A stretch of DNA of 36,686 nt. Source: Planctomycetota bacterium (GTDB lineage: Bacteria > Planctomycetota > Planctomycetia > Planctomycetales > Planctomycetaceae). The stretch lies in contig QWPB01000192.1 in the NCBI GenBank assembly GCA_003671275.1, positions 1 through 36,686 on the forward strand, read 5' to 3'. The position numbers were made by a program, and so were the translations under genes. Below, one piece after another: positions 894-23,822 of the stretch (positions are counted from its first letter, which is position 1; every line of letters begins with the position of its first letter). The notes under the pieces are model-generated. The model saw only the letters and a program-made list of their open reading frames with translations, did not search any database and was not told the origin of the DNA.

Positions 894-1316
894 ATGCCAC
901 TTCGGACTCCCAGCGATGACGATCCGAGCATGAATCTGACGCCGATGATCGACTGCGTCATGCTGCTGGTGATCTTCTTCATGGTTGGTACCAAGTTCGC
1001 CGATCAGGAAAGACAGTACGAGATCAACCTGCCCACGGTCAGCGACGCCCAGCCGCTGACATCGCTGCCCGATGAAATCGTCGTGAATGTGCGTGTCGAT
1101 GGAGCGACCTTTATCAAAGGGAAACTCTTCGCAGCCGAGGATCTGGAAGCCGACCTGAAGCTGGCGGTCAAACGTTATGTGGATCAGGTGGTAATCATCC
1201 GCGGTGATGCCACGGGGCCCTACCAGCATGTCATGACCACTCTCAGTCTGTGCCAACGGGCTGGTATCCGGAACATCAAACTCGCCAACAAGCTTCAGGA
1301 CAGCCCTTCTCGATGA
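894..1316 (+). CDS. exbD: ExbD/TolR-family biopolymer transport protein
   Basis: A 140-residue protein with the ExbD/TolR plan: a short cytoplasmic N-terminus, NLTPMIDCVMLLVIFFMVGT as the single transmembrane helix (about residues 14-33), and a periplasmic domain ending in a GPYQHVMTTLSLCQRAGI helix. Asp20 in the helix is the conserved proton-path residue of the family. The frame is open back to 720, but the ATG at 894 has GGGGAG just upstream and gives the usual family length. In the ExbB-ExbD or TolQ-TolR motor the subunit couples proton flow to work across the envelope. No ExbB/TolQ gene lies in the window; it could be upstream. The stop codon overlaps the ATG of the next gene (ATGA at 1313-1316), so the two are very likely translationally coupled. 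Confidence 0.9.
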   Translation: MPLRTPSDDDPSMNLTPMIDCVMLLVIFFMVGTKFADQERQYEINLPTVSDAQPLTSLPDEIVVNVRVDGATFIKGKLFAAEDLEADLKLAVKRYVDQVVIIRGDATGPYQHVMTTLSLCQRAGIRNIKLANKLQDSPSR

Positions 1317-3607
1317 CGCTGGCACTGCACCTCTCGACGCAGTTATGGCCGCTGCTGGATTTGATCTTGGCGATCTTCCAGCCAGCGATGGTGCTGTTGT
1401 TGTGTGCCGGGTTCGTATTTGCATCGATCCATTTGCTGACCATGCTGGGAACCCGCTGGGGGGATCGCCGGGTCTCTTCCAAGTCCCTGTTTTTCTCCAT
1501 GGGCCTCCACCTGACGTTGCTGTGCGGGGTCATTGCCATGATCCCGGAGTATCGTCCCCGGATGTCAGTAACCGCATTCCAGCCCGACGATATGATCCAG
1601 GTGGGAAGCCTGAATGAGCAGGTTCAGACAGACTTGAACGCAGCCGAGGCGGAACTCGATGGCCGCCCGATCTGGGACAAGATTGACGCGGCAGTCGTCA
1701 TGGAACCAGAGCGCACCGAGATCATTGCTCCGGAACCCGCCCCTGCCCAACTGGCCCATGTCCAGCCCGATCGCCCTGATCAGCCCATCCAGTTGCCTGA
1801 GCTGGACCCGTCCGAGGCAGTCCGGCAGCCAGCCGAAACCAGTATTCTTATGCCCGCCGAACTGGTCCAACAGTCACTGCCAGCCAGTCTGGAGATTCCT
1901 CTGGAAGCTCCCCAGCACGACTTGCCGGCGGTTCCGGCACGTTCGGTCCCCCGGGTGATCCGGTCCGATGCTCCGCGGGGTGTGATGACTCAGGAGCAGG
2001 CGGTCACACGCATTGATCGACAGCCTCCCCATCGTCTCGAACCGGACTATGATCCGGAAGCCGAAAGCCTGTCCATTGCCGCGATGATGGCTCCCGATGC
2101 GACGATCCCTCGGGGACTGCCGGCGGAAGCGATCAGTCGTCGCGAGGGCCCCGCTCCCTACCAGATTTCACAGGACACCGCGCCCCCCGCCACAGCCCCC
2201 GGAACCTTATCGGAAACCAGCCCGAGCGCCCCATCGATGGCCCGCTCGGTTCCTCGTGGTTTTCCGTCGAGCATCCCGGCTCCCCTCAATCGGATGAACC
2301 CTGTCCGTCCCCGCCCAGTGCCGCTGCCTGACAACATTACTCCCGGTGAATCGATCGACCTGGCGGCACCACTCTCGGCCCCCGTGCTGATGCATCCCGA
2401 CTTGTCCCCCCAGGCGATTGTGAAGAATGCCACACCAGCGCAGTACCTGCTACGCAATAATGCCAACCGGGGACAAGCGATTCAGCAGTTCGGAGGTTCG
2501 ACTCAATCGGAAGCAGCCGTCGACCTGGCTTTGAAGTGGCTGGCATCGATCCAGGAGCCCAATGGTTCATTTGATGGAGACTCCCATGGTGCGGGCCGAA
2601 TCGCCATTGAGGCGAACACTGATCGCGACGGACGAAATGCGGATGCCGGCCTGACCGCACTCGCCGTGTTGGCCTTCCTAGGGAAGCAACACACACTGGA
2701 AGACGGCCCCTATTCGGCGAATGTCGAGAAGGCCCTGCGATGGCTGGTCAGTCAGCAGGGGCAGAATTCGCAGGGACTTCCGGGTTACCTTGGCGGGCAG
2801 AACGCCTCAAACATTGCGGGGATGTACTCCCATGCCCTGGCGACATTTGCCATTGCCGAAGCGTACGCCATGACCAAGGACCAGTCGCGGGCGGAGTTCC
2901 TGAAACTCCCCCTGCAACGGGCAGTGCAGTTCACTATCGAATGCCAGCTCAGCGATGGGGGCTGGCGTTACATGAAGCTGCAGAAGGACGGCGGCGACAT
3001 GAGCATCTTTGGCTGGCAGCTGATGTCACTAAAGAGCGCCCAGGCAGCGGGGATCGATTTGCCACTGGAAGTCCGGCAGAAAATGATCCAGTTTCTACAG
3101 AACCGTGGGGTCGGCCCGGCGGGAGGACTGGCCAAGTACCGCCCCCATGAACGCGCCCCCAGCGTCGCCATGACCGCCGAGGCTCTGTTCTGCAAGCAGA
3201 TGCTGGGCATTAGTCGTGAGCATCCCTCCTGCACCGAAGCGGTCGATTTCATCCTTGCCAATCCGCCAACTCGCAGCACGGCAGACCTGTACAGTTGGTA
3301 CTACTCGACTCTGGCCCTCTACCAATATGGTGGCGAGCCTTGGGAAAAGTGGAACGGGAAGATGCGGGATCTGCTGGTGAACGAGCAGACTATCTCCGGC
3401 CCGCTGGCTGGCAGCTGGGAACCACGCGATCGCTGGGGTGGTTTCGGCGGGCGCATCTACTCGACCACTTTCGCAACCCTGACTCTCGAAGTGTACTACC
3501 GATATCTGCCGCTCTATCAGCTCTCGGCACCGGCGGGATCGCCCCCCGCAGGGACGCCGCAAGAAGCGGAACCCCGGTCGGAGCTGACGCCTGTGCTGGA
3601 AAAATAG
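1313..3607 (+). CDS. membrane-anchored squalene-cyclase/prenyltransferase-like toroid protein
   Basis: A 764-residue protein in three parts. The N-terminus has two hydrophobic segments (about residues 24-45 and 58-78). Residues ~85-395 are rich in Pro, Ala and Glu with no recognisable fold, as expected for a periplasm-spanning linker. Residues ~400-745 form an alpha/alpha toroid like squalene-hopene cyclase or protein prenyltransferase beta subunits, with repeated helix pairs and motifs such as WLASIQEPNGSFDG, ALRWLVSQQ and QLSDGGWRY. The DxDD motif of hopene cyclases is not obvious, so enzymatic activity is doubtful. It starts inside the exbD stop codon (ATGA). Coupling to a proton-driven ExbD suggests a TonB-like force-transmitting or envelope-scaffold role, by inference. 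An earlier in-frame ATG at 1250 lies inside exbD and is less likely. Confidence 0.85.
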   Translation: MTLALHLSTQLWPLLDLILAIFQPAMVLLLCAGFVFASIHLLTMLGTRWGDRRVSSKSLFFSMGLHLTLLCGVIAMIPEYRPRMSVTAFQPDDMIQVGSLNEQVQTDLNAAEAELDGRPIWDKIDAAVVMEPERTEIIAPEPAPAQLAHVQPDRPDQPIQLPELDPSEAVRQPAETSILMPAELVQQSLPASLEIPLEAPQHDLPAVPARSVPRVIRSDAPRGVMTQEQAVTRIDRQPPHRLEPDYDPEAESLSIAAMMAPDATIPRGLPAEAISRREGPAPYQISQDTAPPATAPGTLSETSPSAPSMARSVPRGFPSSIPAPLNRMNPVRPRPVPLPDNITPGESIDLAAPLSAPVLMHPDLSPQAIVKNATPAQYLLRNNANRGQAIQQFGGSTQSEAAVDLALKWLASIQEPNGSFDGDSHGAGRIAIEANTDRDGRNADAGLTALAVLAFLGKQHTLEDGPYSANVEKALRWLVSQQGQNSQGLPGYLGGQNASNIAGMYSHALATFAIAEAYAMTKDQSRAEFLKLPLQRAVQFTIECQLSDGGWRYMKLQKDGGDMSIFGWQLMSLKSAQAAGIDLPLEVRQKMIQFLQNRGVGPAGGLAKYRPHERAPSVAMTAEALFCKQMLGISREHPSCTEAVDFILANPPTRSTADLYSWYYSTLALYQYGGEPWEKWNGKMRDLLVNEQTISGPLAGSWEPRDRWGGFGGRIYSTTFATLTLEVYYRYLPLYQLSAPAGSPPAGTPQEAEPRSELTPVLEK

Positions 3608-3744
3608 TCCCGATATCCGCCCGAAGTCGCCGGACACCTGAAAATCGGCTTGAACTGTCGACATTCTCCTAAATCAACGATAAGTTGTTTCGCTTCTCTG
3701 GGTTGCATCTTCCCAGAGGCCAGTCATCGTCAGAGGTTCAGTTC

Positions 3745-4794
3745 ATGTCGCAATCGCAAGTGCGAATCGGCATTGTCGGTGCGGGAGCCAATACCCGCGC
3801 GCGGCATATTCCCGGGTTTCGAGCCATCGATGGCGTGGAGATCGTCTCCGTCGCCAATCGCTCGCTCGAATCGGCCCGGCAAGTGGCCAGCGACTTCCAG
3901 ATTCCCCAAGTCATCGAACGGTGGCAGGATCTGGTGGCATCACCCGAGATTGATGCTGTCATGATCGGCACCTGGCCCAACATGCACTGCGAAGTCACAT
4001 GTGCAGCCCTCGCGGCGGGCAAGCATGTGCTGTGCGAAGCGCGCATGGCCCGTGATCTGGCCGAAGCCCGACAGATGCTCACCGCATCCCAGGCTCATCC
4101 ACAACTGGTGGCCCAGATCGTTCCCAGCCCCTTTGGTCTGGATGTCGGTGCCCGCGTTCGGCGGCTGCTCGACGACAACTTCATTGGGGATCTGCGAGAG
4201 TTTGTGGTTCTGGCTGCGGATGACCAGTTCTGGGACTACTCCAAGCCATTGCATTGGCGCCAGGACAGCCAACTCAGTGGCAAGAACATACTCGCCATGG
4301 GGATCATGCACGAGACCCTGACCCGGATCATTCCCGACCCGACCCGGGTCTTCGCTCAAGGAGCGATTTTCGAGGCCCAGCGGCCCGATCCTTCGATCAA
4401 TGACTACCGCAACTGTGACATTCCGGACAGTGTCCAGATCGTGACCCAGACCGCAACGGGGGCTCAAGGGGTGTACCACCTGAGCGGCACCGTGCTCTAC
4501 GGGCCCGGCAAGCAGATTCATCTCTACGGAACCCGAGGCACCGTCAAAATCGTCTTCGGAGCTCGCGAGCAGGTCTTCACTGGCCACCACAGCCAAAGCG
4601 AACTCCGCGAGATCGACATCCCTGCCGCCGAACGCGGCGGCTGGCGCGTCGAGGCGGAATTCATCGGAGCCATCCGGGGCCAGGAGCCGGTGAAATACAC
4701 GACCTTCGCCGATGGGGTACGATACATGGAGTTCACAGAAGCCGTCGGCGAAAGCCTGCGGCGGCAGGTTCCGATCGCGCTGCCGCTGGCCTGA
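3745..4794 (+). CDS. Gfo/Idh/MocA-family NAD(P)-dependent oxidoreductase
   Basis: A 349-residue protein with an N-terminal Rossmann fold (VRIGIVGAGANTRARHIPGF, residues 6-25) and a C-terminal alpha/beta domain typical of the Gfo/Idh/MocA family, which oxidises or reduces sugars and related polyols. The ATG at 3745 is preceded by AGAGG at good spacing; upstream in-frame codons (TTG at 3685) only add a poorly conserved leader. The usual dinucleotide-binding EKP motif reads E98-A99-R100 here (VLCEARMARDLAEA), so the customary lysine is missing. It is followed about 90 bp later by hisH, with no obvious metabolic link. The substrate cannot be deduced. Confidence 0.88.
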   Translation: MSQSQVRIGIVGAGANTRARHIPGFRAIDGVEIVSVANRSLESARQVASDFQIPQVIERWQDLVASPEIDAVMIGTWPNMHCEVTCAALAAGKHVLCEARMARDLAEARQMLTASQAHPQLVAQIVPSPFGLDVGARVRRLLDDNFIGDLREFVVLAADDQFWDYSKPLHWRQDSQLSGKNILAMGIMHETLTRIIPDPTRVFAQGAIFEAQRPDPSINDYRNCDIPDSVQIVTQTATGAQGVYHLSGTVLYGPGKQIHLYGTRGTVKIVFGAREQVFTGHHSQSELREIDIPAAERGGWRVEAEFIGAIRGQEPVKYTTFADGVRYMEFTEAVGESLRRQVPIALPLA

Positions 4795-4887
4795 ACCTGA
4801 TCCCGGCCCAGAGTGTCCGCTTTGCGTTCGCTCCGTCATTCACACAGCATCATCTCCGCGAACCCCCGTACCTCCGAAAATGATCCG

Positions 4888-5514
4888 ATGATCCAGATTG
4901 TCGACTACGGCATGGGCAATCTTCGCAGCGTCCAAAAGGCGTTCGAAAAGCTCGGTGTGGCAGCGGAGATCACCCATCGTCCCGCCGATCTGGCGACTGC
5001 TGATCACGTTGTGTTGCCCGGTGTCGGAGCGTTTCGGGATGCCATTGCTGAACTGCGTCGGCTGGATTTTGTGCCCGCCATTCGCGATGCGGTGGCAAGC
5101 GGTAAGCCGTTTCTGGGGATCTGCCTGGGACTGCAACTTCTGTTTGATGTCAGCCACGAAGATGGTGAGCACGAAGGTTTGGGCATTGTCCCGGGACAGG
5201 TGGTTCGCTTCGCTTCCCAACCGGGATTGAAAGTCCCCCACATGGGATGGAATGGATTGGCACTGCACCAGAACCACCCGATGCTCAGCGGTATCGCACC
5301 GGGCTCCCACGTCTATTTCGTACACAGCTACCACGTCGTCCCGGCTGACCGCAGTGTGATCGCCGCGACAAGCGACCATGGTGGCGAATTCGTCGCCATG
5401 ATCGCCCGTGACAACCTGGCAGCCACCCAGTTCCACCCCGAGAAGAGTCAAAAGATCGGGCTGCAATTGCTGAACAACTTTGCCCGCATGGAAAGCCACT
5501 CGTCGCGGGTGTAA
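4888..5514 (+). CDS. hisH: imidazole glycerol phosphate synthase, glutaminase subunit HisH
   Basis: A 208-residue class I glutamine amidotransferase. HisH releases ammonia from glutamine for HisF, which forms imidazole glycerol phosphate and AICAR in histidine synthesis. The start [15 protein letters not shown] is the family's canonical N-terminus, so the ATG at 4888 is preferred to the frame start at 4813. The oxyanion motif PGVGAF, nucleophile Cys79 in [12 protein letters not shown], and catalytic His183 and Glu185 in FHPEKSQ are all present. The length is normal. hisF and other his genes are not in this window, as is usual in planctomycetes, where his genes are scattered. Confidence 0.96.
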
Positions 5515-5564
5515 CCTCACGTGACGGTGATTTCTTCCCGCCCCTGGATCACACCGAGTCCACA

Positions 5565-5741
5565 ATGTCCGGTTTCCGCAATAACCTGGGATTCCTGCTT
5601 CAGCTGGGGGCCCTGACGTTCCTGCCGGTACTGATTATCTGGCAGCTGAACTTTGGTTTTCGGTTGTTGTGGATGCCGTCGCTGACGATGGCCGGGCTGT
5701 GCGTGTTCTGGATCGGGCACCAGCTGCGGGACAGGAATTAA
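5565..5741 (+). CDS. small two-helix membrane protein, 58 aa
   Basis: A short frame beginning MSGFRNNLGF and ending GHQLRDRN. It has two hydrophobic stretches (about residues 9-30 and 34-51) separated by a short FGFR turn, with a charged C-terminus. It starts 50 bp after the hisH stop on the same strand. There is no strong Shine-Dalgarno, but the composition is that of a real membrane protein and the frame ends before the convergent hydrolase gene. I recall similar small proteins in other planctomycete genomes; that memory is unverified. The function is unknown. Confidence 0.65.
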   Translation: MSGFRNNLGFLLQLGALTFLPVLIIWQLNFGFRLLWMPSLTMAGLCVFWIGHQLRDRN

Positions 5742-5812
5742 CCGCGTCCCGCAGCAACCATCGGCACTTCCGTATGCGCCTCGTTTTCCGTGAGCATCAA
5801 GCCTTGTGAATG

Positions 5813-8053
5813 CTACGGGGCCTTTACCGCCTTCAGCTCCCACTTCTCCCCGAAGAAATCCCCCGTCGCGATCTTCCCTGGCCAGCGGGCATCGGGCGGA
5901 GTGGTCAGGTCGATGATGGCCCAGTCGGGGAGCTTGGGGACCTGCCGGGCGTTGTTGAGGTAGTCGTACTCGCGATAGGTGAATGAGCTGTTGAGAACGA
6001 CGTACTTCTCCGGGTTGAGCGGGTTCGGGTAGATCAGGACCGAGGCGTGCGTCTTGGCGTCGAACTTCTGCTCGCCGACCGTGATCTGCTCGGCTCCCCA
6101 CTGGATCGGCAGCGAGCCGGCGACCTTGGCGATCGTCGGGTTGCTCTGGGCATCGCCCCACAGGATCAGGTGGTAGTTCTCGATGTCTGCAGGCTGGAGT
6201 TCCTCGCTGGTCTTCACGCGAGCCTCGCCCCGCATCTGGCGGTGCCACTCGCGGACCGCGCGGTTGAACTCGGACTCGACCCACTTGTCGACTTCGGGAT
6301 GTCGGCCAGTTGCGGTGGGCTTCACGAACAGGAAGGGGGACATGAAGGCATCGTCGATCGGGCCTTGGAGGTTGTGCTTCTTGACGAGTTCTTTTGAAGC
6401 AGGCTCGATCGGGGAGACGATTTGCCAGTTGCCGTCCGCTTGGATGCGGAACCGCGCGCCCCAGGAACGGTCAGACCGACGAGGAACGTTGATGCCACTG
6501 GGAACTGGGCTCCGAGATCCGAATCCACCACGACCGAATGTCCCTTCGGCAGGCTGAGCTTGCTGACGGCGATTCTGGAGTTCCTGCATCGCCCGCTGGG
6601 CCTCGGCCCGCTGCGTCTCATCTCCATTGCGGGCTTGCTCAAAGAGTTTACGGAGGTGTTCCTGTTCCTCGTTGGCCTTGGCTTCGCTCGCTGGATTCGA
6701 AACTCGAACTCGAATGTTGAGCGACTCGAATGGCACTTCGTCAGCGGCGAACTCCAGCGAAAACTCAGAGACATTCTCCGCTCGTACACTGAAATCCGAA
6801 CTTCCGATTGCGCTGGTGCTGGAACTCCAACTAGCCCGGATGTGGGCGGGCTTCCAGTGTTCTTGGAGTCGATGAACCGTGACCCAGTGAGCCTGGTTGT
6901 ACTTCAAGGTGGTCGTCGTGAAGTTCACTGAACGCGGGGGCTGTGGGGACCGCAACTGATCCAGCGTCGCCAGCCGCTGCTCAATCTCGGCCCGCGCTGC
7001 CGGAGTAATGCTGTGCGCTGTCTTCGGCGCGATGATGTGCGTCAACTCAAACCGCTCCCCTTCCGGCAATCCCCAGCAGGCCGCAGCCATGATGTCGGCA
7101 GCCTGCTTCTGGCTGTCGATCTCCCCGCTGTACGCAATCGTCGGCAGCATGCGCAGATTGCGAACCCACACGGGGCAGTCGTACATCTGCCACAGCGTCT
7201 GCTCGAACGGGTACGGTTTGAGTTCTTCCTTCTGGAACACCTTCAGGAAGTCCGGCGTCTCGGAGAACCCGGCCCCGGGATTCGCGGCGAACCACTTGTC
7301 CGGATAGTGAACCGCCAGGTGCCATGCAGCTGCGCCGCCCATGGAGAACCCGCGGATGGCGACCCGCTGCGGATCGATCGGGTACTCGGAGAGAGCGTGT
7401 TCCAGGGCTTCGAGCGTGTCGACCTCACCCGCGAGTTTGTTGGCGTTGCAGTACCGTCCAAAGGGGTGAATCATCAGGACGCCGGGAGCCGGAACCGGGT
7501 CCGGGCTGGTCATGCGGGTGGCGAGGAACTGGAGTTCAAGCCCTTTCTCGCTGCGGCCCCGGCACCAGATATCGGCCCGTAGCCCGGTCGCCCTGAAGTC
7601 ACCTTGATAGACGATCCCGTACGGCTGGGGCGATCCATCGAGCTTCGACCGAAACCCGCGCACCACGCTGCCGGTCTGCCGGGTCCAGGGGGTCTGGCCT
7701 TGGGCGAGGGCCTCCGCGCGGGCGATCCCCTCTTGGAGAACACTCAGTCCGCGCGGACCATCCTTCGGATCAAAGAACCCGTCTTCGTTCAGGGCCAGAT
7801 CAATGGCTCGCGAGAAGATCTCCACATCCGGCAGATACTTCTGCACTGTGGGATTCTTGGAGCTGCGGAGGGCATCGATCTTCTGATGCAGGGTTGCCCC
7901 CCCCTCCATGAGAGCCGTCCGATCGGCGGCCTCAATCGCCACCCCCGGTGGCGGCACCGCACGGACGCTTACGACTTGGTTATCCGCCGGACCATCGGCG
8001 AAGACGGCGGTCGTGGCCACCAACAACGAAGCGAGAAATGCCCAGCGCTGCAT
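5813..8053 (-). CDS. secreted alpha/beta-hydrolase (prolyl-oligopeptidase-like) with long C-terminal extension
   Basis: A 746-residue secreted protein. The ATG at 8053 is chosen because it begins a clear signal peptide (MQRWAFLASLLVATTAVFA) and has AGGAG upstream; the frame itself opens further back. Residues ~190-370 are an alpha/beta hydrolase of the prolyl oligopeptidase/esterase group: nucleophile Ser237 in GFSMGGAAAW, an Asp in YSGEIDSQ, and His347 in KTAHSITP. The C-terminal half has a beta-rich part, then a Glu/Gln/Arg-rich helical stretch leading into a Gly-rich linker (GTFGRGGFGSRSP), then a second folded domain ending near GDFFGEKWELKAVKAP. I do not recognise this second domain. The substrate could be a peptide or a carbohydrate ester. 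It forms a minus-strand run with the M20 peptidase, with a 219-bp gap. Confidence 0.88.
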   Translation of the reverse strand: MQRWAFLASLLVATTAVFADGPADNQVVSVRAVPPPGVAIEAADRTALMEGGATLHQKIDALRSSKNPTVQKYLPDVEIFSRAIDLALNEDGFFDPKDGPRGLSVLQEGIARAEALAQGQTPWTRQTGSVVRGFRSKLDGSPQPYGIVYQGDFRATGLRADIWCRGRSEKGLELQFLATRMTSPDPVPAPGVLMIHPFGRYCNANKLAGEVDTLEALEHALSEYPIDPQRVAIRGFSMGGAAAWHLAVHYPDKWFAANPGAGFSETPDFLKVFQKEELKPYPFEQTLWQMYDCPVWVRNLRMLPTIAYSGEIDSQKQAADIMAAACWGLPEGERFELTHIIAPKTAHSITPAARAEIEQRLATLDQLRSPQPPRSVNFTTTTLKYNQAHWVTVHRLQEHWKPAHIRASWSSSTSAIGSSDFSVRAENVSEFSLEFAADEVPFESLNIRVRVSNPASEAKANEEQEHLRKLFEQARNGDETQRAEAQRAMQELQNRRQQAQPAEGTFGRGGFGSRSPVPSGINVPRRSDRSWGARFRIQADGNWQIVSPIEPASKELVKKHNLQGPIDDAFMSPFLFVKPTATGRHPEVDKWVESEFNRAVREWHRQMRGEARVKTSEELQPADIENYHLILWGDAQSNPTIAKVAGSLPIQWGAEQITVGEQKFDAKTHASVLIYPNPLNPEKYVVLNSSFTYREYDYLNNARQVPKLPDWAIIDLTTPPDARWPGKIATGDFFGEKWELKAVKAP

Positions 8054-8272
8054 CGGTCTGTTCTCCTGAAGAAGCTCCAAGCATCGACAATAATGCATCT
8101 GACGCCGCCAACGTAAGTCAGCGGCATCCTCACGGGACACACCACCGTATCGCATTTTCAATGTGTGTACGCGATCCGCCCGGAGAAACAGTTCCAGGGG
8201 AAGCCGGGCGTGATCCTGCTCGGAATGCCGACCGCAAAGCAGTCGCCAACGCAGACCCGGTTTCCGCTCACT

Positions 8273-9658
8273 TTACTTCGCTGCCAGCTCATACCACAGA
8301 CAGGTGCTAGCCCGAATACCGCGCTGGTAATCTTCGAGCGAAAACCGCTCGTTCGGACTGTGCAGGTTATCGGTGTTCTGGCCCCAGCCGAGCAGCAGGG
8401 TGTCGACTCCCAGAATTTCTTTGAACGTTCCGACCACTGGAATCGAACCGCCCTCGCGGATCAAAACCGGGGCCTTACCGAATCCTTTTTCGATCGCCCG
8501 CTTGGCAGCCGCCATGTAGGGACTGCCCAGATCACACACCGTCGCCGGGCAACCGTGGTACTCCTTGAACTCCAGTTGGAGTCCGGGCCGCACGCGGGCT
8601 TCGACGAATGTCCGCAGACTGGCCACGATTTTATTGGCATCCTGACTGGGGACCAGCCGGCAGGTAATCTTGGCCATCGCCCAACTGGGAATAATCGTTT
8701 TGGGCCCCTCGCCGGTGTAACCGCTGAGCATTCCATTGATATCACATGTGGGGCGGGCCCAGCGGCGTTCGAGAGTCGTGTATCCCGCCTCACCCCAGAC
8801 ATCTCCCGCCCCAATTCCCGCCAGAAACTGCTGCTGATTAAACGGCAGCTGAGCCCACTCCGCCCGCTCCTCGGTGGTCAGGTCTTTAACATCGTCGTAG
8901 AAACTGGGGATCTGCACGCGCCCCGATTCGCAGTGCAACTCGGCTACAATCCGCGCCAGTGCGTTGGCGGGGTTGGCGATCGATCCACCAAAAATTCCAC
9001 TGTGTAGATCCTGTCGCGGCCCGGTCAGTTTGATCTCGCAGGCAACAATGCCCCGCAGTCCGTACGTAATCGCCGGGAGGCCCGGACCGTACTGGCTGGT
9101 GTCACTGACCACCGCGATATCGTTCCGGCAGCGGTCCCGGTGATCACGCAGAAAAATCTCCAGGTGATTGCTGCCCACTTCTTCTTCCCCTTCAATGACA
9201 AACTTGACGTTCACCGGCAGTTGTCCAGCTGTCTTCAGCCACGCCGTGACCGAGCGGATGTGGGTATACATCTGCCCTTTGTCATCGGTGGCCCCCCGGG
9301 CAAAGATGTGACCGTTTCGCACCGTGGGCTCAAACGGCGGAGTCTCCCACTGGTCGAGCGGGTCCGGCGGCTGGACATCGTAATGCCCATAGATCATCAC
9401 CGTCGGGGCTCCAGGTGCCCCCAGCCATTCGCCATAGACAATCGGGTGCCCTGGAGTCTCGAACAGCTCGGCCTTGAGCCCCGCCGCCTTCAGCTGATTC
9501 AGAACATACTCAGCGGCCCGACGGGTATCCGCATTATGCGAGGATTGCGCACTGACACTGGGAATTCGCAACAGCTCGGTCAGCTGTTCGACAGACTGGG
9601 CGGCGTAACGCTCGTTCCATTGAAGAGCGTTTTTAAGAGAGGTCTGGTCCATGAGCAT
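8273..9658 (-). CDS. M20-family metallo-dipeptidase
   Basis: A 461-residue zinc peptidase of the M20 (ArgE/DapE/CNDP-like) family that hydrolyses dipeptides or acylated amino acids, probably in the cytoplasm since no signal peptide is seen. Metal-site motifs are intact: GHYDVQPP with His92 and Asp94, GATDDKGQ with bridging Asp125, EGEEEVGS with the general-base Glu pair, SDTSQYGPG, and a C-terminal TDNLHSPNE histidine. The dimerisation (lid) domain sits between about residues 190 and 340. Two in-frame ATGs compete, at 9658 and 9652; GACGGA fits 9658 slightly better. Peptide scavenging fits the neighbouring hydrolase, but co-transcription is unproven. Confidence 0.93.
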   Translation of the reverse strand: MLMDQTSLKNALQWNERYAAQSVEQLTELLRIPSVSAQSSHNADTRRAAEYVLNQLKAAGLKAELFETPGHPIVYGEWLGAPGAPTVMIYGHYDVQPPDPLDQWETPPFEPTVRNGHIFARGATDDKGQMYTHIRSVTAWLKTAGQLPVNVKFVIEGEEEVGSNHLEIFLRDHRDRCRNDIAVVSDTSQYGPGLPAITYGLRGIVACEIKLTGPRQDLHSGIFGGSIANPANALARIVAELHCESGRVQIPSFYDDVKDLTTEERAEWAQLPFNQQQFLAGIGAGDVWGEAGYTTLERRWARPTCDINGMLSGYTGEGPKTIIPSWAMAKITCRLVPSQDANKIVASLRTFVEARVRPGLQLEFKEYHGCPATVCDLGSPYMAAAKRAIEKGFGKAPVLIREGGSIPVVGTFKEILGVDTLLLGWGQNTDNLHSPNERFSLEDYQRGIRASTCLWYELAAK

Positions 9659-9766
9659 GCGTTCCGTCAACAGAGATTCCCCACGACAGTGAAGGTTCCC
9701 AATTCTAACGGAGTCGCTGCGCCCTGCCACCGGGATCACCATGGACCTTCGTTCCCGGTCCCGGAA

Positions 9767-10348
9767 CTACAGGGGTTTCTTTTCGTGGGTCCCCGCGCGG
9801 AACTTCAGGAACTTCACCCAAACCCCTCCGGATGCATCGGTCTTCACTTCCAGAGTATCGAGATCGCGGGGCGGAATCTGGTTGTTCCGCGACCCGTCCA
9901 GATTAAACGCACTGTCGTGGCAGGGACAGACGTACTTCTGTTCCCCTTCCCGGAACTGCACCGTACAGCCCAGATGTGGGCAGCGGGCATTAAAGCACGA
10001 CACGGTGTCTCCATCGCGACGCAGATAGACCGCTCCGATAGGAGTCTGCGGAAACTTGTTCCACGCATCGACCAGGTCCGCAATCACCTGAAACGACCGC
10101 GGAGCGCCATCCGTCGGCAGGGAATCGAGCGTGGTGATTCGCAGGAATCCCTCGCCAATCTCCGCCGGTGGGGCCGTCGCAGCCGAGCCAGCGTCCACCT
10201 TGCGGGACCGCAGCAGCGGATCCAGAAACATCGCCGCCCCGCAGCAGGCCGGTACTGCCCCGGCCAAAGTCCCCACACCCACGGCACAAGCTTCCGTCAA
10301 AAAGCTCCGGCGAGGCTGTTCCGCAGTGGTTTCGGGGTGATCGGCCAT
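9767..10348 (-). CDS. Rieske [2Fe-2S] iron-sulfur protein with Tat-like signal
   Basis: A 193-residue Rieske protein. The N-terminus has a twin-arginine-like signal and anchor (RRSFLTEACAVGVGTLAGAV), which suits folded export of a cofactor protein. Box I is C123-P-H125-L-G-C128 and box II is C141-P-C143-H144; Cys123/His125/Cys141/His144 would hold the cluster and Cys128/Cys143 form the disulfide typical of high-potential bc-complex Rieske proteins. The ATG at 10348 is chosen because the MADHPETT start precedes the RR motif directly. No cytochrome b gene is adjacent, so it may serve a complex encoded elsewhere or act alone. It is divergent from the sulfatase at 10515. Confidence 0.93.
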   Translation of the reverse strand: MADHPETTAEQPRRSFLTEACAVGVGTLAGAVPACCGAAMFLDPLLRSRKVDAGSAATAPPAEIGEGFLRITTLDSLPTDGAPRSFQVIADLVDAWNKFPQTPIGAVYLRRDGDTVSCFNARCPHLGCTVQFREGEQKYVCPCHDSAFNLDGSRNNQIPPRDLDTLEVKTDASGGVWVKFLKFRAGTHEKKPL

Positions 10349-10514
10349 GTGTAATCTCAGCGGGAATCGAGAGGCGAACAATCCATGTTCACTTATGGTC
10401 TCGCCGCACTCCCCCGAATGTCAAGGCGACCCGGACCGCGGATTCGGCCCAGTTGCCGGATCGCTCCGGCTCGGCCATGATGCCAACATCTGATCTCTGC
10501 TTCCGGAGTCTGCC

Positions 10515-12374
10515 ATGCGGCGATGTTTTCTGGTGTTGTGTTCACTGCTGACGGGAATGGTCGGACCACTGTTCGCCGCGGATCGCCCCAATATCCTCTG
10601 GATCTCCAGTGAGGACAACGGCCCAGCGCTCGGCTGTTATGGCGACCAGGATGCCCGTACGCCCCATCTGGATGCCCTCGCCCGCAAATCGGTGATCTAC
10701 CGCAATTGCTGGTCCAACGCCCCGGTCTGTGCCCCCGCCCGAACCACGATCATCACGGGGATGTTTTGCCCCAGCACCGGCTCGGAACATATGCGGAGCG
10801 AAGTGCAGCTGCCCGCCGGGATGAAGATGTTTCCGCAATACTTGCGAGACGCGGGATACTACTGCACGAATAACGTCAAGGAAGATTACAACATCACGAA
10901 GCCGGGGCCGGTCTGGAATGAATCCAGCAACAAGGCCCACTGGAAGAATCGAGCTCCCGGGCAGCCGTTCTTCTCGGTCTTTAATTTTACAACCACGCAC
11001 GAAAGCCAGGTTCGCAATCGTCCCCACGCGTTCATTCACAGTCCGGGTGATGTGCACGTGCCCGGATTTCATCCTGATTTGCCCGAGGTCCGGGAAGCCT
11101 GGGCCCAGTACCACGATCAGATGAGTGTCATGGACACTCAGGCAGGACAGATCCTGGAGGATCTGGAACGGGCGGGTCTTACGGCGGACACGATCGTCGT
11201 CTATTTCGGAGACCATGGGCCGGGACTGCCCCGCTGCAAACGGTCCCCCTGCAATAGCGGTTTACGAGTTCCTTTGATCCTGCATATTCCCGATCAATTC
11301 AAAGCTCTGGCTCCCGAGGGCTATGCCATGGGACAGGCCCTGGATCGTCCGGTGTCGTTTGTGGATCTGGCCCCGACCATGCTCAGCCTGGCAGGGCTGG
11401 AACCACCCCCCACGATGCAAGGGCGGGCCTTTGCCGGTCCCCAGACCCGAGATCCGTGTGAGTTCCAGTTTGGCTATCGTGCCCGTATGGACGAACGACT
11501 CGACCTGACTCGTTCGGTGCGATGGAAAAACTGGGTCTACGTTCGCAATCTGATGCCCCACAAGACCGCCGGTCAGTTTCAAACGTATATGTACGAAACG
11601 CCCATGATGCTGACCTGGAAGAAGGCTTACGATGCCGGAACGCTGCCCATCCAGCATGCGAGATTTTTCCAGCCGGATGCCCCGGAAGAGTTATACAATC
11701 TGGACACCGACCCCGCAGAGGTCAATAACCTGGCCACCTGCATCTCCTGTCAGGATGAACTCTGGATGCTGCGCCGGGCACTCCACAACTGGCAAATCGA
11801 AATTGGCGACATCGACATCCTGCCCGAAGCCGAGATGCATCGCCGGACCATGAATTCGACCCCTTACGAACTGGGACACAACCCGCAGACTCTACGCATC
11901 GACCATGTGCTGGCCACTGCGGAACTCGCCAGCGACACCTCCAACCCCAGCTGGAATCTGTTCCCGCATCTGCTCGCTCATCCGGAACCCGGCGTACGGT
12001 ACTGGGCCGCCATGGGGCTGATGTTACGAGGAACCGCCGCAGTCTCGGGGAGTGTGGAGCCCCTGGCGGCTCGCCTGACCGATGAGTCACCAGCGGTTCG
12101 AACGATGGTGGCCGAAGCTCTGCTGCGGACCGGTTGTGCCGAGGGAACCAATGCTCGTGAAGTCCTGCTGGCCGGTTGTGCCGATGGTCCCGCACCTCCC
12201 GCATTGGCCTTGCAGGCGCTGAATGCTCTGGATGATATGGAGGCGCAGGGATTGGAGTTGTTTCAATCTCTGCCCGCCGCCGAGAAGGTCCACAAGTCAG
12301 ATAAGTCTCGCAATCATGGAGAGTACCGGACTCGAATGCTGATTCGGTTGCAGTCCAAAATCATGGTACCGTAA
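10515..12374 (+). CDS. secreted sulfatase with C-terminal HEAT-like repeats
   Basis: A 619-residue formylglycine-dependent sulfatase (type I). A signal peptide covers residues 1-21. The metal-binding start is PNILWISSEDNGP, and the maturation motif C72-A-P-A-R76 followed by TTIITG is canonical, so Cys72 should become formylglycine. Further active-site elements are VVYFGDHGPGLPR and a YNLDTDPAEVNNLA block typical of arylsulfatases. After about residue 480 there are paired helices (residues ~495-600, with VRYWAAMGLMLRG and VRTMVAEALLRTG) resembling HEAT repeats, which may bind the polysaccharide or a partner. GGAG lies 7 bp before the ATG. It probably desulfates polysaccharides in the periplasm or outside the cell; the exact substrate is unknown. 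Confidence 0.93.
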   Translation: MRRCFLVLCSLLTGMVGPLFAADRPNILWISSEDNGPALGCYGDQDARTPHLDALARKSVIYRNCWSNAPVCAPARTTIITGMFCPSTGSEHMRSEVQLPAGMKMFPQYLRDAGYYCTNNVKEDYNITKPGPVWNESSNKAHWKNRAPGQPFFSVFNFTTTHESQVRNRPHAFIHSPGDVHVPGFHPDLPEVREAWAQYHDQMSVMDTQAGQILEDLERAGLTADTIVVYFGDHGPGLPRCKRSPCNSGLRVPLILHIPDQFKALAPEGYAMGQALDRPVSFVDLAPTMLSLAGLEPPPTMQGRAFAGPQTRDPCEFQFGYRARMDERLDLTRSVRWKNWVYVRNLMPHKTAGQFQTYMYETPMMLTWKKAYDAGTLPIQHARFFQPDAPEELYNLDTDPAEVNNLATCISCQDELWMLRRALHNWQIEIGDIDILPEAEMHRRTMNSTPYELGHNPQTLRIDHVLATAELASDTSNPSWNLFPHLLAHPEPGVRYWAAMGLMLRGTAAVSGSVEPLAARLTDESPAVRTMVAEALLRTGCAEGTNAREVLLAGCADGPAPPALALQALNALDDMEAQGLELFQSLPAAEKVHKSDKSRNHGEYRTRMLIRLQSKIMVP

Positions 12375-12450: not shown

Positions 12451-15400
12451 ATGACCGTGCCCCGCTTAGGCTTTCACCCGATCATCGACCGCTGGTTCGC
12501 CTCGCGGTTTGCCGGACCGACCGAACCGCAAGTTCGCGGCTGGCCGGAGATCGCTGCGGGACGGCATACGTTGATTTCCGCTCCGACCGGCAGCGGGAAG
12601 ACGCTCACGGCGTTTCTGGCGGTCATTGACCGGCTGTTCCGAGAATCGCTGGCGGGCACGCTGAAGCCAGAGATGCGGGTCGTCTACATCTCCCCACTGC
12701 GGGCGCTGTCGAACGACATGCAGAAAAACCTGAGTGGGCCGCTGGAGGAGATTGCTCAGTTCGCGAAGGAAGCGGGTGAGGTGCTTCCGAAGCTGAGAGT
12801 GGGGTTACGGACGGGCGATACCTCCGCATCCGAACGGGCCAAGCTGGTCAAGAATCCGCCGCATATCTTCGTGACGACTCCCGAGTCACTGTTCCTGATG
12901 CTGACCGCCGAGAAAGGCCGAGCCGCGCTCTCGACCGTCGACACGGTCATCGTCGATGAGATTCACGCCCTGGCGAGAGATAAACGCGGCTCGCATCTGG
13001 CGCTGAGCCTGGAGCGGCTGGAACATCTGGTCAACCGCAAGGTCGTCAATCCGGAAGAGGATTCACCACGGAGGCACGGAGGCACGGAGACAAAGGGAGA
13101 GGCATGCCGCACCGTAGGACGGGCACAATTGCCCGTCCCAATAGAACAGCTTTCACGCTCAATCGCTCTCATCCCCAATCCCTCTCCCGAGGGGAGAGGG
13201 GAGCCGGAAGTGCTTCTCCCGTCGGCCCCCTCTGCCTACCGTCGTCACCTCCAGCGGATCGGTCTCTCCGCCACGCAGAAACCGATCGAGCGCATGGCCC
13301 GATTCCTGGTCGGGGCGGGGCAGAATCTCGATCCAGTTCCCGCCGAGCCGCCGCCACGCGAGTTGCCGGAACTGGATGCAACGGGGGGCTGTCGGGAAGA
13401 GGTCGATCGCGCGGGGCAGATCACCCGTCGCGAGCCGCCCGCATCGCGCCCGGTCGACTGCTCGATCATCGATGTCGGCCACCAGCGACAACTCGACCTC
13501 GGCATCGTCACTCCCGAAAGCGAACTCAGCGCCATCTGCTCGCATGAATTGTGGGCCGAGATCAATGCCCAGATCGTGGAGCTGATCAACACCCACCGCA
13601 GCACGGTGATCTTCGTCAATACCCGCCGGATGGCCGAGCGGGTCACGTTTCAACTCACCCAATTGCTGGGTGAAGAAGCTGTCAGCAGCCACCACGGTTC
13701 ACTGTCAGCGGAGATCCGTCTCAAGACTGAGCAGCGGTTGAAGACGGGTAATCTGCGGGCGGTCGTGGCGACGGCCTCCCTCGAATTGGGAATCGATGTC
13801 GGCTACATCGACCTCGTCATCCAGGTCGGATCACCTAGGTCGATCGCAACGTTCTTGCAGCGAATTGGTCGATCGGGTCACGCCCTCGGATTGATTCCCA
13901 AGGGGCGGCTGATTGCACTGACCCGCGACGAGCTGCTGGAAGCAATGGCTCTGGTCCAGGCGATCCGCGCGGGGCGGCTGGATGTGACTCCGGTGCCGAT
14001 TGCTCCGCTCGATGTCCTGGCCCAGCAGATCGTGGCTGAGGTCTCGACGGGCGAATGGGGCACGGATGAACTTTATGATCGGTTCCGCCGCGCCGAGCCG
14101 TACCGCACGCTGCGTCGTTCGCAGTTTGATCAGGTCATCAAGTTCCTCAGTGAAGGGGTCACCGACACCGGCGGACGGATTCATACACTGCTGCACCACG
14201 ACCATGTCCATCGCCGCGTGCGGGCACGCCCCAATGCGAGGCTGACCTCGATCAACAACGGCGGGGCGATTCCCGAGACCGATGTGATCCGCGTGGTCGT
14301 CCAGCCTGAAGGAACGGTCGTCGGCTCGGTTGATGAAGAGTTCGGCGTCGAGAGCATGGCGGGGGATGTGTTCCTGCTGGGGAATACATCCTGGCAGATC
14401 GAAGGCCTGCGCGGCAGCGACCTGCATGTCCACGACGCCCACGGAGCCCCGCCAACAATCCCCTTCTGGCGCGGCGAAGGACCGGGAAGAACACTGGAGC
14501 TGTCGGAGGAGGTGTCCCGACTGCGGCGCGAGATTGAGGAGAGAGTGAAGGAGGATCAAAGTGGTCGCGTGCGGGAGGAAGGAGATTCACCACGGAGGCA
14601 CGGAGGCACGGAGGCAGAGAGAGAAGAACTCACTGCCTTCAGCCAGGCACACTCGCTCGCTCCGAGCGCAGGGCCGAAGCCTCCCATACTTACCGATAAT
14701 TCTCGCTCTTCCACGCTTGAGCGGAGTCAAGAGAAGGAGTCTCCTCCCCGTTCTTCCTCAATGCCTCCGTGCCTCCGTGGTGAATCTTCTGAGATAGAGC
14801 CGGGGCATTCCGTGGCTCCCCGGATCGTTCAACACTTTACCCTCGACTCTCAACCCACCTCGTCTTCCGCCCAGTTTGTTGGTCCACTGGACTCGGAGAC
14901 TTTGGCTGGCTCTCACCTCTCGTCTCTCGTCCCGCGTCTCTCCCAGTGGCTGGTCGACACCACGAGCTGCACTCTGTCCGCTGCCGAGCAGATCGTCACC
15001 TATGTCGCCGCACAGCAGGCGGCGATCGGACTGGTACCGACGCAGGACCGGGTGATCTTCGAACGGTTCTTCGATGAGACCGGCGGCATGCAGCTGGTCG
15101 TCCACGCCCCGTTCGGAGCGCGGATCAACCGGGCCTGGGGCCTGGCGATGCGCAAGCGGTTTTGCCGCTCGTTCGACTTTGAGTTACAGGCCACCGCCGA
15201 TGACGATGGGTTCATCCTCTCGCTCGGCCCGCAGCACTCGTTTCCGATCGAGAGCCTGTTCCCGATGCTGCGGGCGGATAATGTCCAGAACCTGCTGGAG
15301 CAGGCGATCCTGGCGGTCCCGATGTTCCAGCTGCGCTGGCGGTGGAATGCCACGCGGGCCTTGCTTGTGGCGCGACAAAGGAATGGCAAAAAAGTTCCGC

Positions 15401-19071: not shown

Positions 19072-19120
19072 CGACGAGGCAAGGATGGCCTGCTCGATGA
19101 ATTCGTCGGAGTGTCCGGCC

Positions 19121-20581
19121 ATGAAGAATTACCTTTGGAGTGTGGCTGCCTGCTTGGCGGCGCTCACTTCCTCCGCGCAGGGAGGTTGGTTCTGCGGTGC
19201 AGCGCGGTACAACTGTTGTCCCGTGACAGTGTGCCAGCCCACAGCATGTTACACCGCCTGCCGCGTGGAACGTCAGACATGCTTTCGGACGGTGTACGAC
19301 ACCGTGTACGAGCCGCAAACTTACACCTGCAACCGCGTGGTCCAGGAGGTGGTTTGCGAAGATGTCGCACAGACATGTTACCGGACCGTCACGGAGCAAG
19401 CGGTTCGTGATGTGCAGTACACGGTGCAGCGCCCGGTCTACGAGACCAGCGTCCGAACCGAGAACTACTGCGTGCAGCGCCCGGTTTACGAGACCCAATA
19501 CCGCGAGCAAACCTACCAGGTGCAACGTCCGGTGGTGCAGACTGTTAATCGGCAGGTGAAACGCGTCGTGTGCCGCCCCGTGACTGAAAACCATACGCGG
19601 CAGGTCTGCCGAACGGTTTACCGACAGGTAACGGAAACAATCAATCAGGAGCGGTGCCACACTGTTCGCGAACCCGTTACGACCTACCGGACCGTGCGTC
19701 AGGACGCCGGATCGTGGCAGACGCAACCCATCAATGTGCCGGGCCCACTGTTACCACGCATGGTCATCGATCCCTGTAGTCGCGTTCCTCGCATCTGCAT
19801 GGTCCGCAGCCGGGGGTTCACTTATTGCCGTCGGATCTGGGTGCCTCAGATTTGCGAGCGTCAGGTTCCCTGCACCACCTATGTCGCGCGCATCGTCCGC
19901 CAAAGTTGCCCCGTAACCGTGTGTCGGACCGTGCCGCAGACCGTGACCGAAAACGTTACATGCACCACCACCCGTATGGTGTCTCAGGAGGTCGTCGAAA
20001 ACGTTCCTGTCCAAGTCTGCAACTATGTCTGCGAAACCAAGGTCAACCGCGTACCGTATCAGACGTGCCGCATGGTGACTGAGACCAAGCAGCGTCAGAC
20101 TCCCGTCCAGACGTGCCGTATGCTGAACGAAGTTCGGACCCGCCAAGTGCCCTACTGCGTCTCCCGGCAAGTCCCCTACACCGTCACTCGCAAGGTGGCC
20201 CGCTGTGTGACTCGCAACGAGCCGGTCTGCATGACGCGGATGGTTGCCAAAACGGTCTGCCGCCAGGTGCCCTACGAAGTTTGCCGGATTGTTCCACAAG
20301 TTCCGTGCGACAGCTGCGGCATCACTGACACGGTGGAGCCCGTAGGTTCCATCCCCATGCCGTATGAGTCGGCACGTCCAGATTTCTCCGCTCCATTGAT
20401 CGAGGGCCCGATGGTTCCCGGTCCGGTGCTCGTGGATCCGAATTCTCAGACCCCTCTCAATCTCGGACAGCCGAATCTGGTGGCTCCGGTCCCCGTACCG
20501 GTCGAGCCGGCTCTGGTGCCGGCTCCCGAAGCTCGTCGTTCCGGCCCCAGTGCCCTCCGCGTTCCGGCCCGCCGGTTCTAA
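19121..20581 (+). CDS. cysteine-rich YTV-repeat protein, probable cell-wall protein
   Basis: A 486-residue secreted protein starting at MKNYLWSVAACLAALTSSAQG, a signal peptide; GGAG lies upstream of this ATG, so longer in-frame starts (18992, 19097) are less likely. The mature part has about 33 cysteines. Residues ~100-200 contain ~16-residue repeats of the form YTVQRPVYETSVRTEN, YCVQRPVYETQYREQT, YQVQRPVVQTVNRQVK. Residues ~250-400 contain a second series around VPYQTCRMVTET. This matches the planctomycete YTV family (PF07639), proposed as disulfide-linked proteins of the proteinaceous wall. The last ~80 residues are Pro-rich and end PARRF. A strong hairpin terminator follows at 20680. Confidence 0.85.
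   Translation: MKNYLWSVAACLAALTSSAQGGWFCGAARYNCCPVTVCQPTACYTACRVERQTCFRTVYDTVYEPQTYTCNRVVQEVVCEDVAQTCYRTVTEQAVRDVQYTVQRPVYETSVRTENYCVQRPVYETQYREQTYQVQRPVVQTVNRQVKRVVCRPVTENHTRQVCRTVYRQVTETINQERCHTVREPVTTYRTVRQDAGSWQTQPINVPGPLLPRMVIDPCSRVPRICMVRSRGFTYCRRIWVPQICERQVPCTTYVARIVRQSCPVTVCRTVPQTVTENVTCTTTRMVSQEVVENVPVQVCNYVCETKVNRVPYQTCRMVTETKQRQTPVQTCRMLNEVRTRQVPYCVSRQVPYTVTRKVARCVTRNEPVCMTRMVAKTVCRQVPYEVCRIVPQVPCDSCGITDTVEPVGSIPMPYESARPDFSAPLIEGPMVPGPVLVDPNSQTPLNLGQPNLVAPVPVPVEPALVPAPEARRSGPSALRVPARRF
19424..19495 (+). repeat. 48-bp-period direct repeat in the YTV gene
   Basis: GTGCAGCGCCCGGTCTACGA at 19424 recurs at 19472 with one change over 24 bp. The 48-bp spacing equals the 16-residue protein repeat, pointing to recent internal duplication inside the gene. 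Confidence 0.8.
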
Positions 20582-23617: not shown

Positions 23618-23822
23618 ATCGTCCCCAGTAAAGGGGGATCAATGACGTGGCCCGGCGGTTTCTGCCGTCGTATTGATCTCCGTGACGGATCGGTTCTGTT
23701 GTTCTGAACCTGTTCGTCTACAACTCTGCGTTCGATCGAAGTCCGCTGAACAACGACTTCAGGCACGCAGCAACATCGAGCGCATCCAGTCCGCTGGCTG
23801 CCTGTTCAGGGAAGGTCAGGCC

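Follow-up and report, generated by a model that had tools for sequence, protein, structure and literature searches.

The window, a 36,686-nucleotide stretch that makes up the entire contig C8 of a planctomycete genome (5.03 Mb, 99.2% complete), carries on its forward strand an ExbD/TolR-type motor gene overlapping the gene for a membrane-anchored protein with an alpha/alpha toroid head. The computed order of the genes, the relatedness of the two halves, a conserved motif with conserved motor residues, and an anchor-spacer-toroid anatomy are best read together as one half of a split TPR-ExbB-ExbD-toroid module, with the other half on contig C107 of the same genome. We consider it probable that the reunited module makes a proton-driven force transducer, in which the toroid protein docks on the motor through its second membrane helix and which serves a role likelier to be Tol-like than Ton-like.

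The ExbD gene (894-1316, + strand) encodes 140 residues matching PF02472 with an E value of 9.6e-29 (100.5 bits against a Pfam cut-off of 25.4). Among the NCBIfam models, TolR scored 65.7 bits on this protein and the best ExbD model 43.2, all of these scores lying below the respective cut-offs. The toroid-protein gene (1313-3607, + strand; 764 residues) has near full-length relatives in most genomes of the same family. Its ATG (1313-1315) overlaps the ExbD TGA (1314-1316) in an ATGA tetranucleotide (1313-1316, + strand), and reading of the sequence confirmed the originally predicted coordinates and overlap. The fixed stoichiometry once drawn from this overlap does not follow; the ATGA arrangement suggests translational coupling instead. 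In the 20 same-family loci with an ExbD upstream, the distance between the two genes falls between -4 and +16 in 17 cases, and the -4 overlap itself occurs in 8, two of which (L071 and L109) belong to near-identical congeners. This pattern exceeds chance. Upstream of the pair, the contig opens within a truncated gene (3-689, + strand) that resembles TIGR03009 (E 1.7e-9; 37.7 bits, under its cut-off of 90.5). When its profile was run against 548 genes from a first set of fetched loci, it matched the gene itself alone; as far as seen, the gene stands outside the module. The gap between it and ExbD (690-893) measures 204 bases, too short to hold the ExbB/TolQ gene that had been proposed as a check just upstream, and none is present there. 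Elsewhere, the window encodes an Lhr-type large helicase of 1812 aa (12451-17889), a YTV-repeat protein (19097-20581) and an FKBP-type isomerase fused with a 3-keto-disaccharide hydrolase domain (23673-25745).

A full-length AlphaFold2 model of the toroid protein, built on 28 aligned full-length relatives, contains two N-terminal helices at residues 7-47 (1331-1453, + strand) and 54-76 (1472-1540, + strand), where hydropathy placed membrane helices at residues 17-35 and 59-77. These are followed by a spacer predicted to be disordered, residues 84-375 (1562-2437, + strand), with pLDDT mostly below 50 across residues 84-371, and by a toroid head at about residues 376-738 (2438-3526, + strand). 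The spacer comprises 292 residues and is 16.8% Pro, compared with 4.4% in the head. All parts of the predicted layout, namely two membrane helices, a Pro-rich spacer of about 300 residues and a toroid, are recovered, and the two predicted helices argue against the possibility that the protein is not inserted in the membrane. A basic loop, RWGDRRVSSK, joins the helices and, by the positive-inside rule, would therefore be cytoplasmic, so that the N-terminus is predicted to be periplasmic.

Helix 2 carries Ser62-x-x-x-His66, the motor-binding Ser-x-x-x-His (SxxxH) signature of TonB and TolA. His66 is present in all 28 aligned relatives and Ser62 in 27 of them. Of the 45 toroid proteins in the fetched loci that have a hydrophobic segment, 36 show SxxxH, as against 7 of 422 hydrophobic segments from other proteins (Fisher p about 3e-38, from rows that are not independent and a background of related sequences defined by a crude hydropathy window). 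A hydrophobic stretch with SxxxH was likewise found in 73 of the 80 best-matching named planctomycete loci; the seven exceptions are five cut loci (L140, L157, L168, L179 and L206), L171, which has AxxxH, and L193, in which SxxxH sits between two toroids. The SHLS motif, whose Leu and second Ser we take to lie at His+7 and His+11, is represented by its first Ser and its His; the Leu and second Ser are absent as conserved residues, columns 73 and 77 being mixed among the 28 relatives. SHLS has been published for a motor-binding helix in the main text of PMC12204202. The TonB/TolA-like layout of the original prediction is supported by these data, to which the SxxxH helix is an addition, and the anatomy suggests that the toroid protein transduces force.

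The window protein on its own reached the cut-off of no toroid model in Pfam or NCBIfam (22.6 of the 26.5 bits needed for Prenyltrans, 33.2 against 322.7 bits for squalene_cyclas). The fold assignment rests on the structure model and the profile. An AlphaFold2 model of the head from 44 sequences attained a pLDDT of 92.9 and a pTM of 0.92, and its top structural match was squalene-hopene cyclase (Z 27.1 over 301 residues, 3.3 A, 19% identity), followed at Z of about 22-25 by other terpene cyclases and cellobiose 2-epimerases. Foldseek alone gave a weaker match (E 4.4e-6, TM-score 0.56 by query length). A sequence profile of the head also led to squalene-hopene cyclase, with an E value of 6.6e-16 and the repeats aligned. 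Pfam searches of the toroid protein yielded no TonB_C or TolA-type C-terminal domain and no vWA match, and the head was modelled at high confidence as a helical toroid; the lack of vWA and TonB folds in the structural match list is uninformative by itself. These results bear out the claim that an unusual head is mounted on a TonB/TolA-like layout.

Aromatic residues are numerous among the conserved positions of the head and acidic ones few (Trp551, Tyr553, Asp562, Trp568, Tyr663, Trp702, Glu516 and Glu623), of which Glu516 and Asp562 are invariant and Glu623 is kept in 91% of heads. This conservation suggests a putative binding pocket. Class II terpene cyclases are marked by a DxDD motif, which occurs in just 2 of the 44 heads, close to the C-terminal end; membership of the family in the terpene cyclases was accordingly rejected. 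The head has the fold of class II terpene cyclases and of sugar enzymes, which together with the conserved polar residues Glu516, Asp562 and Glu623 would nevertheless suit a membrane-tethered enzyme: a lyase, epimerase or cyclase in the periplasm, with the ExbBD motor tuning how far it reaches or how active it is. Such an enzyme alone would have no need of a conserved SxxxH helix or a disordered arm of about 290 residues, and the rarity and placement of DxDD also speak against it; we regard this alternative as improbable.

The probable ExbB partner of the force transducer that we favor was found at a separate locus. In L088, L089, L090, L091, L097 and L103-L107, a TPR gene of about 1000 residues, ExbB, ExbD and the toroid gene form a single run. 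Very long spacers occur in operons of this type: the toroid proteins of L103-L107 have 1125-1379 aa and, in the TPR-ExbB-ExbD operon of L226, about 900 residues precede the head. The genome of the window carries a TPR gene and an ExbB gene together on contig C107 (L031; TPR_16 E 4e-34, MotA_ExbB E 6.7e-30). In G037, G028, G010, G029 and G032, the C107 ExbB hits exactly the complete toroid operon best, and in G033 the toroid-operon ExbB is a close second to the best hit. In the f2 genomes G025, G034 and G038, which have a TPR-ExbB-toroid run, the best hit is another locus. The f2 loci L094, L098 and L100, together with L200 and L212, show TPR-ExbB-toroid with no ExbD between, which like the f2 hits counts against the module as proposed; their motor may use an ExbD encoded elsewhere or may work in another way. 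Among the 25 same-family genomes, a C107-type ExbB occupies a separate locus in 23, and a TPR gene adjoins it in 17 of these 23 loci as fetched. The absence of an ExbB ahead of the window pair is explained by a split of the operon in this family.

Quick trees of selected rows, computed with long-branch warnings, were in agreement with this arrangement. The ExbB tree set 48 chosen rows, from toroid operons or of the C107 type, apart from 6 others with an SH-aLRT of 97. The 6 comprise one ExbB from L072 and five more from the window's own genome; one of these five sits in the toroid operon of L030, and its place outside the clade counts against our reading. The window ExbD grouped with its congeners (98) among the toroid-linked ExbDs of its family, the deeper forks being weak. 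Thr195 is kept in 47 and Thr229 in 45 of the 48 ExbBs, and the membrane residue Asp20 of ExbD in 41 of 41 aligned toroid-linked ExbDs, so that the proton-path residues of the motor are present. The same genome also holds a second motor module (L030, G000:C170:27500-40000; 3344-10963) in the order ExbB-ExbD-ExbD-293 aa protein-toroid-TPR, in which the 293 aa protein has no Pfam match and the toroid protein, of 542 aa, has AxxxH in its helix. L029 (G000:C170:9000-18000; 4836-8372) has ExbB-ExbD-ExbD and, behind them, a protein of 1178 aa with FHA and PQQ propeller domains.

Conservation of the pair was assessed by adjacency counts from six-frame profile searches. An ExbD gene lies directly upstream of the toroid gene in 20 of 25 same-family genomes (G000-G024), at L075 in two overlapping frames. 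In G009 and G015 just the end of ExbD is readable, the remainder being N; G011 has a long-spacer version with TPR-ExbB-ExbD; and the contigs of G014 and G021 stop at the toroid gene. The 80 best-matching named planctomycete loci span Planctomycetaceae, Gimesia, Schlesneria, Fuerstiella, Pirellulales, Thermoguttaceae, Isosphaeraceae, Phycisphaerae and other groups, and in 64 of them ExbD lies upstream. These loci overlap with those of the same-family and other numbered genomes (L142 and L073, for example), so that the two counts are not independent. In all 64 the toroid frame starts less than 200 bases from ExbD or overlaps it. ExbB was also detected within 9 kb at 38 loci and a TPR gene at 28. 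The 16 loci lacking an upstream ExbD comprise six with a cut flank or frame (L140, L157, L168, L179, L206 and L214) and ten others (L147, L148, L200, L203, L204, L209, L212, L216, L217 and L218).

An even sample of the phylum gave a different distribution. The head was found in 76 of 78 genomes, and 60 regions were fetched from 52 further genomes among the 76 matching, those with the best hit listed. Of these 60 regions, 48 encode one or more toroid proteins with an SxxxH helix, and ExbD lies directly upstream in 4 of the 60 fetched toroid loci. On the last count we rejected the notion of a phylum-wide ExbD-toroid pair, so that the conservation across the phylum that had been anticipated does not hold, whereas spread well beyond one species does; confinement to this species, named in the original prediction as grounds for abandoning it, is contradicted by the same-family genomes and the best named loci alike. 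The coupled pair thus characterizes part of the phylum, and the anchored toroid protein is widespread. No relatives were found in plasmid records. The phylum sample also contains a toroid subfamily (L223-L279) with one SxxxH helix, often in a frame of about 500-600 aa and with the pattern 'PW...S...H'; its genes mostly do not neighbour motor genes, and a single region contains as many as three of them.

Some of these loci bear on the idea that the motor helices merely anchor the toroid protein, which would then act as a regulated tether or sensor that passes no force on. L147 and L148 encode the toroid protein with no adjoining ExbD, and the single-helix relatives mostly do not stand beside motor genes, as a tether would allow. 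Retention of SxxxH and of the proton-path residues of the motor, and a gene linkage that recurs in many genera, argue against this idea, and we deem it very improbable.

To place the candidate transducer among the Ton and Tol systems, known parts of both were sought. Profile searches of the window's own genome for TonB_C, TonB_2 and the receptor plug found none, while among 14 control genomes PF03544 matched in 3, PF07715 in 3 and TonB_2 in 1. Neither the plug nor TonB_C was found in the five own-family genomes of the phylum sample. Across that sample, the plug is present in 59 of 78 genomes and TonB_C in 59 of 78; the proposition that planctomycetes lack Ton was therefore rejected for the phylum and holds for the five own-family genomes and some others. 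TolB_N was found in 0 of 40 class relatives and matched in 3 of 14 controls. In five loci titled Phycisphaerae among the best 80 (L191, L193, L201, L202 and L213), the toroid protein of the TPR-ExbB-ExbD operon bears PD40/TolB-like propeller repeats ahead of the anchor (PD40 E 4e-11 to 6e-30), and L193 has a second toroid within the propeller-side part. The toroid protein of the window is without the PD40 propeller, which tempers the comparison with Tol.

From these data we infer, by analogy, a role that is more probably Tol-like, in outer-membrane holding, remodelling or constriction, than Ton-like, in the opening of receptors. A TPR protein, a TolQ/TolR-like motor, an SxxxH arm and a PD40 propeller together recall the components of Tol-Pal; the TolR model outscores the ExbD models on the window ExbD; and no TonB_C or plug was found. 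The lack of TolB_N in the class relatives means, in turn, that a substitute for Tol is wanted. A Ton-like uptake system would have the same anatomy, its head docking on an unrecognised outer-membrane channel or binding a glycan while the motor drives large molecules into the enlarged periplasm, and the kinship of the head fold with carbohydrate enzymes (cellobiose 2-epimerase and GH76 hydrolases) and its many invariant aromatic residues fit such a system. Its receptor, however, would have to be of another kind, given the own-family genomes sampled without a plug, and we view Ton-like uptake as unlikely.

For the Tol-like transducer that we prefer, we propose that the ExbB encoded on C107 and the ExbD of the window form a proton-powered motor, on the side of which helix 2 would dock through Ser62 and His66 in the manner of TonB and TolA. 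The disordered Pro-rich spacer would cross the periplasm, the toroid head would grip a partner at the outer membrane or the peptidoglycan, and turning of the motor would pull on that partner. Docking, force, membrane-spanning reach, the partner of the head and the role are all parts of this proposal that we infer. More tentatively, the family may add one more trans-envelope force system to Ton, Tol and the vWA type, possibly a planctomycete replacement of Tol-Pal. Its cyclase-like toroid would be mounted on an arm that suits the enlarged periplasm, would grip an outer-membrane lipid or glycan and would be pulled by ExbBD; in Phycisphaerae, propeller, anchor, arm and head would be merged in one protein. 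An enlarged periplasm in planctomycetes is described in the abstract of PMC11958385, a paper that also presents tools for the tractable Planctopirus limnophila.

The toroid protein shares with TonB the SxxxH helix, a Pro-rich spacer and an ExbBD motor, and with TolA the SxxxH helix, a long spacer, a TolQR-type motor and the company of a TPR gene in the operon, with a PD40 propeller in Phycisphaerae. Unlike TonB, it has no TonB_C and two helices, and no TonB-dependent receptor plug accompanies it in the family members sampled; unlike TolA, it has a toroid in place of the C-terminal domain. TonB and TolA have a single N-terminal helix and a cytoplasmic N-terminus, whereas the toroid protein has two helices with the basic loop between them. 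It departs from Tol-Pal in the absence of TolB_N from all 40 class relatives and in a Phycisphaerae propeller that is fused rather than a separate TolB. By its C-terminal domain and its number of helices, the protein falls outside the TonB/TolA family, although it may work like these proteins. Its linked ExbB/TolQ and ExbD/TolR genes, with their proton-path residues, place the family, as judged from sequence, in the wider kind made up of a PMF-driven 5:2 motor and a transducer. With squalene-hopene and other class II terpene cyclases it shares the toroid fold and differs in the unconserved DxDD and in having one toroid on an anchor and spacer instead of a two-domain enzyme.

The closest parallel is offered by the vWA-headed force transducers proposed by Williams-Jones et al. 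(2025, PMC12204202), for which the main text names Planctomycetes among the hosts. As described there, those systems likewise combine a TPR gene, TolQ- and TolR-type genes, a helix with a motor-binding motif, a Pro-rich linker and a head other than that of TonB. According to the same text, they differ in a vWA head where the present family has a toroid, in an SHLS helix of which the toroid protein keeps S and H alone, in a TolR-like gene pair where toroid systems mostly have one ExbD, and in lacking the extra membrane helix of the toroid protein. The words toroid, squalene and prenyltransferase are absent from the main text of PMC12204202, and searches limited to open-licence PMC found no toroid-headed transducer in the literature. 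The window's own family has kept ExbB and ExbD motors although the tests made in it for TonB_C, receptor plug and TolB_N were all negative, making the toroid-headed arm a candidate for the missing transducer. If this is true, toroids join the TonB, TolA and vWA heads among the domains to which the motor-binding helix has become attached.
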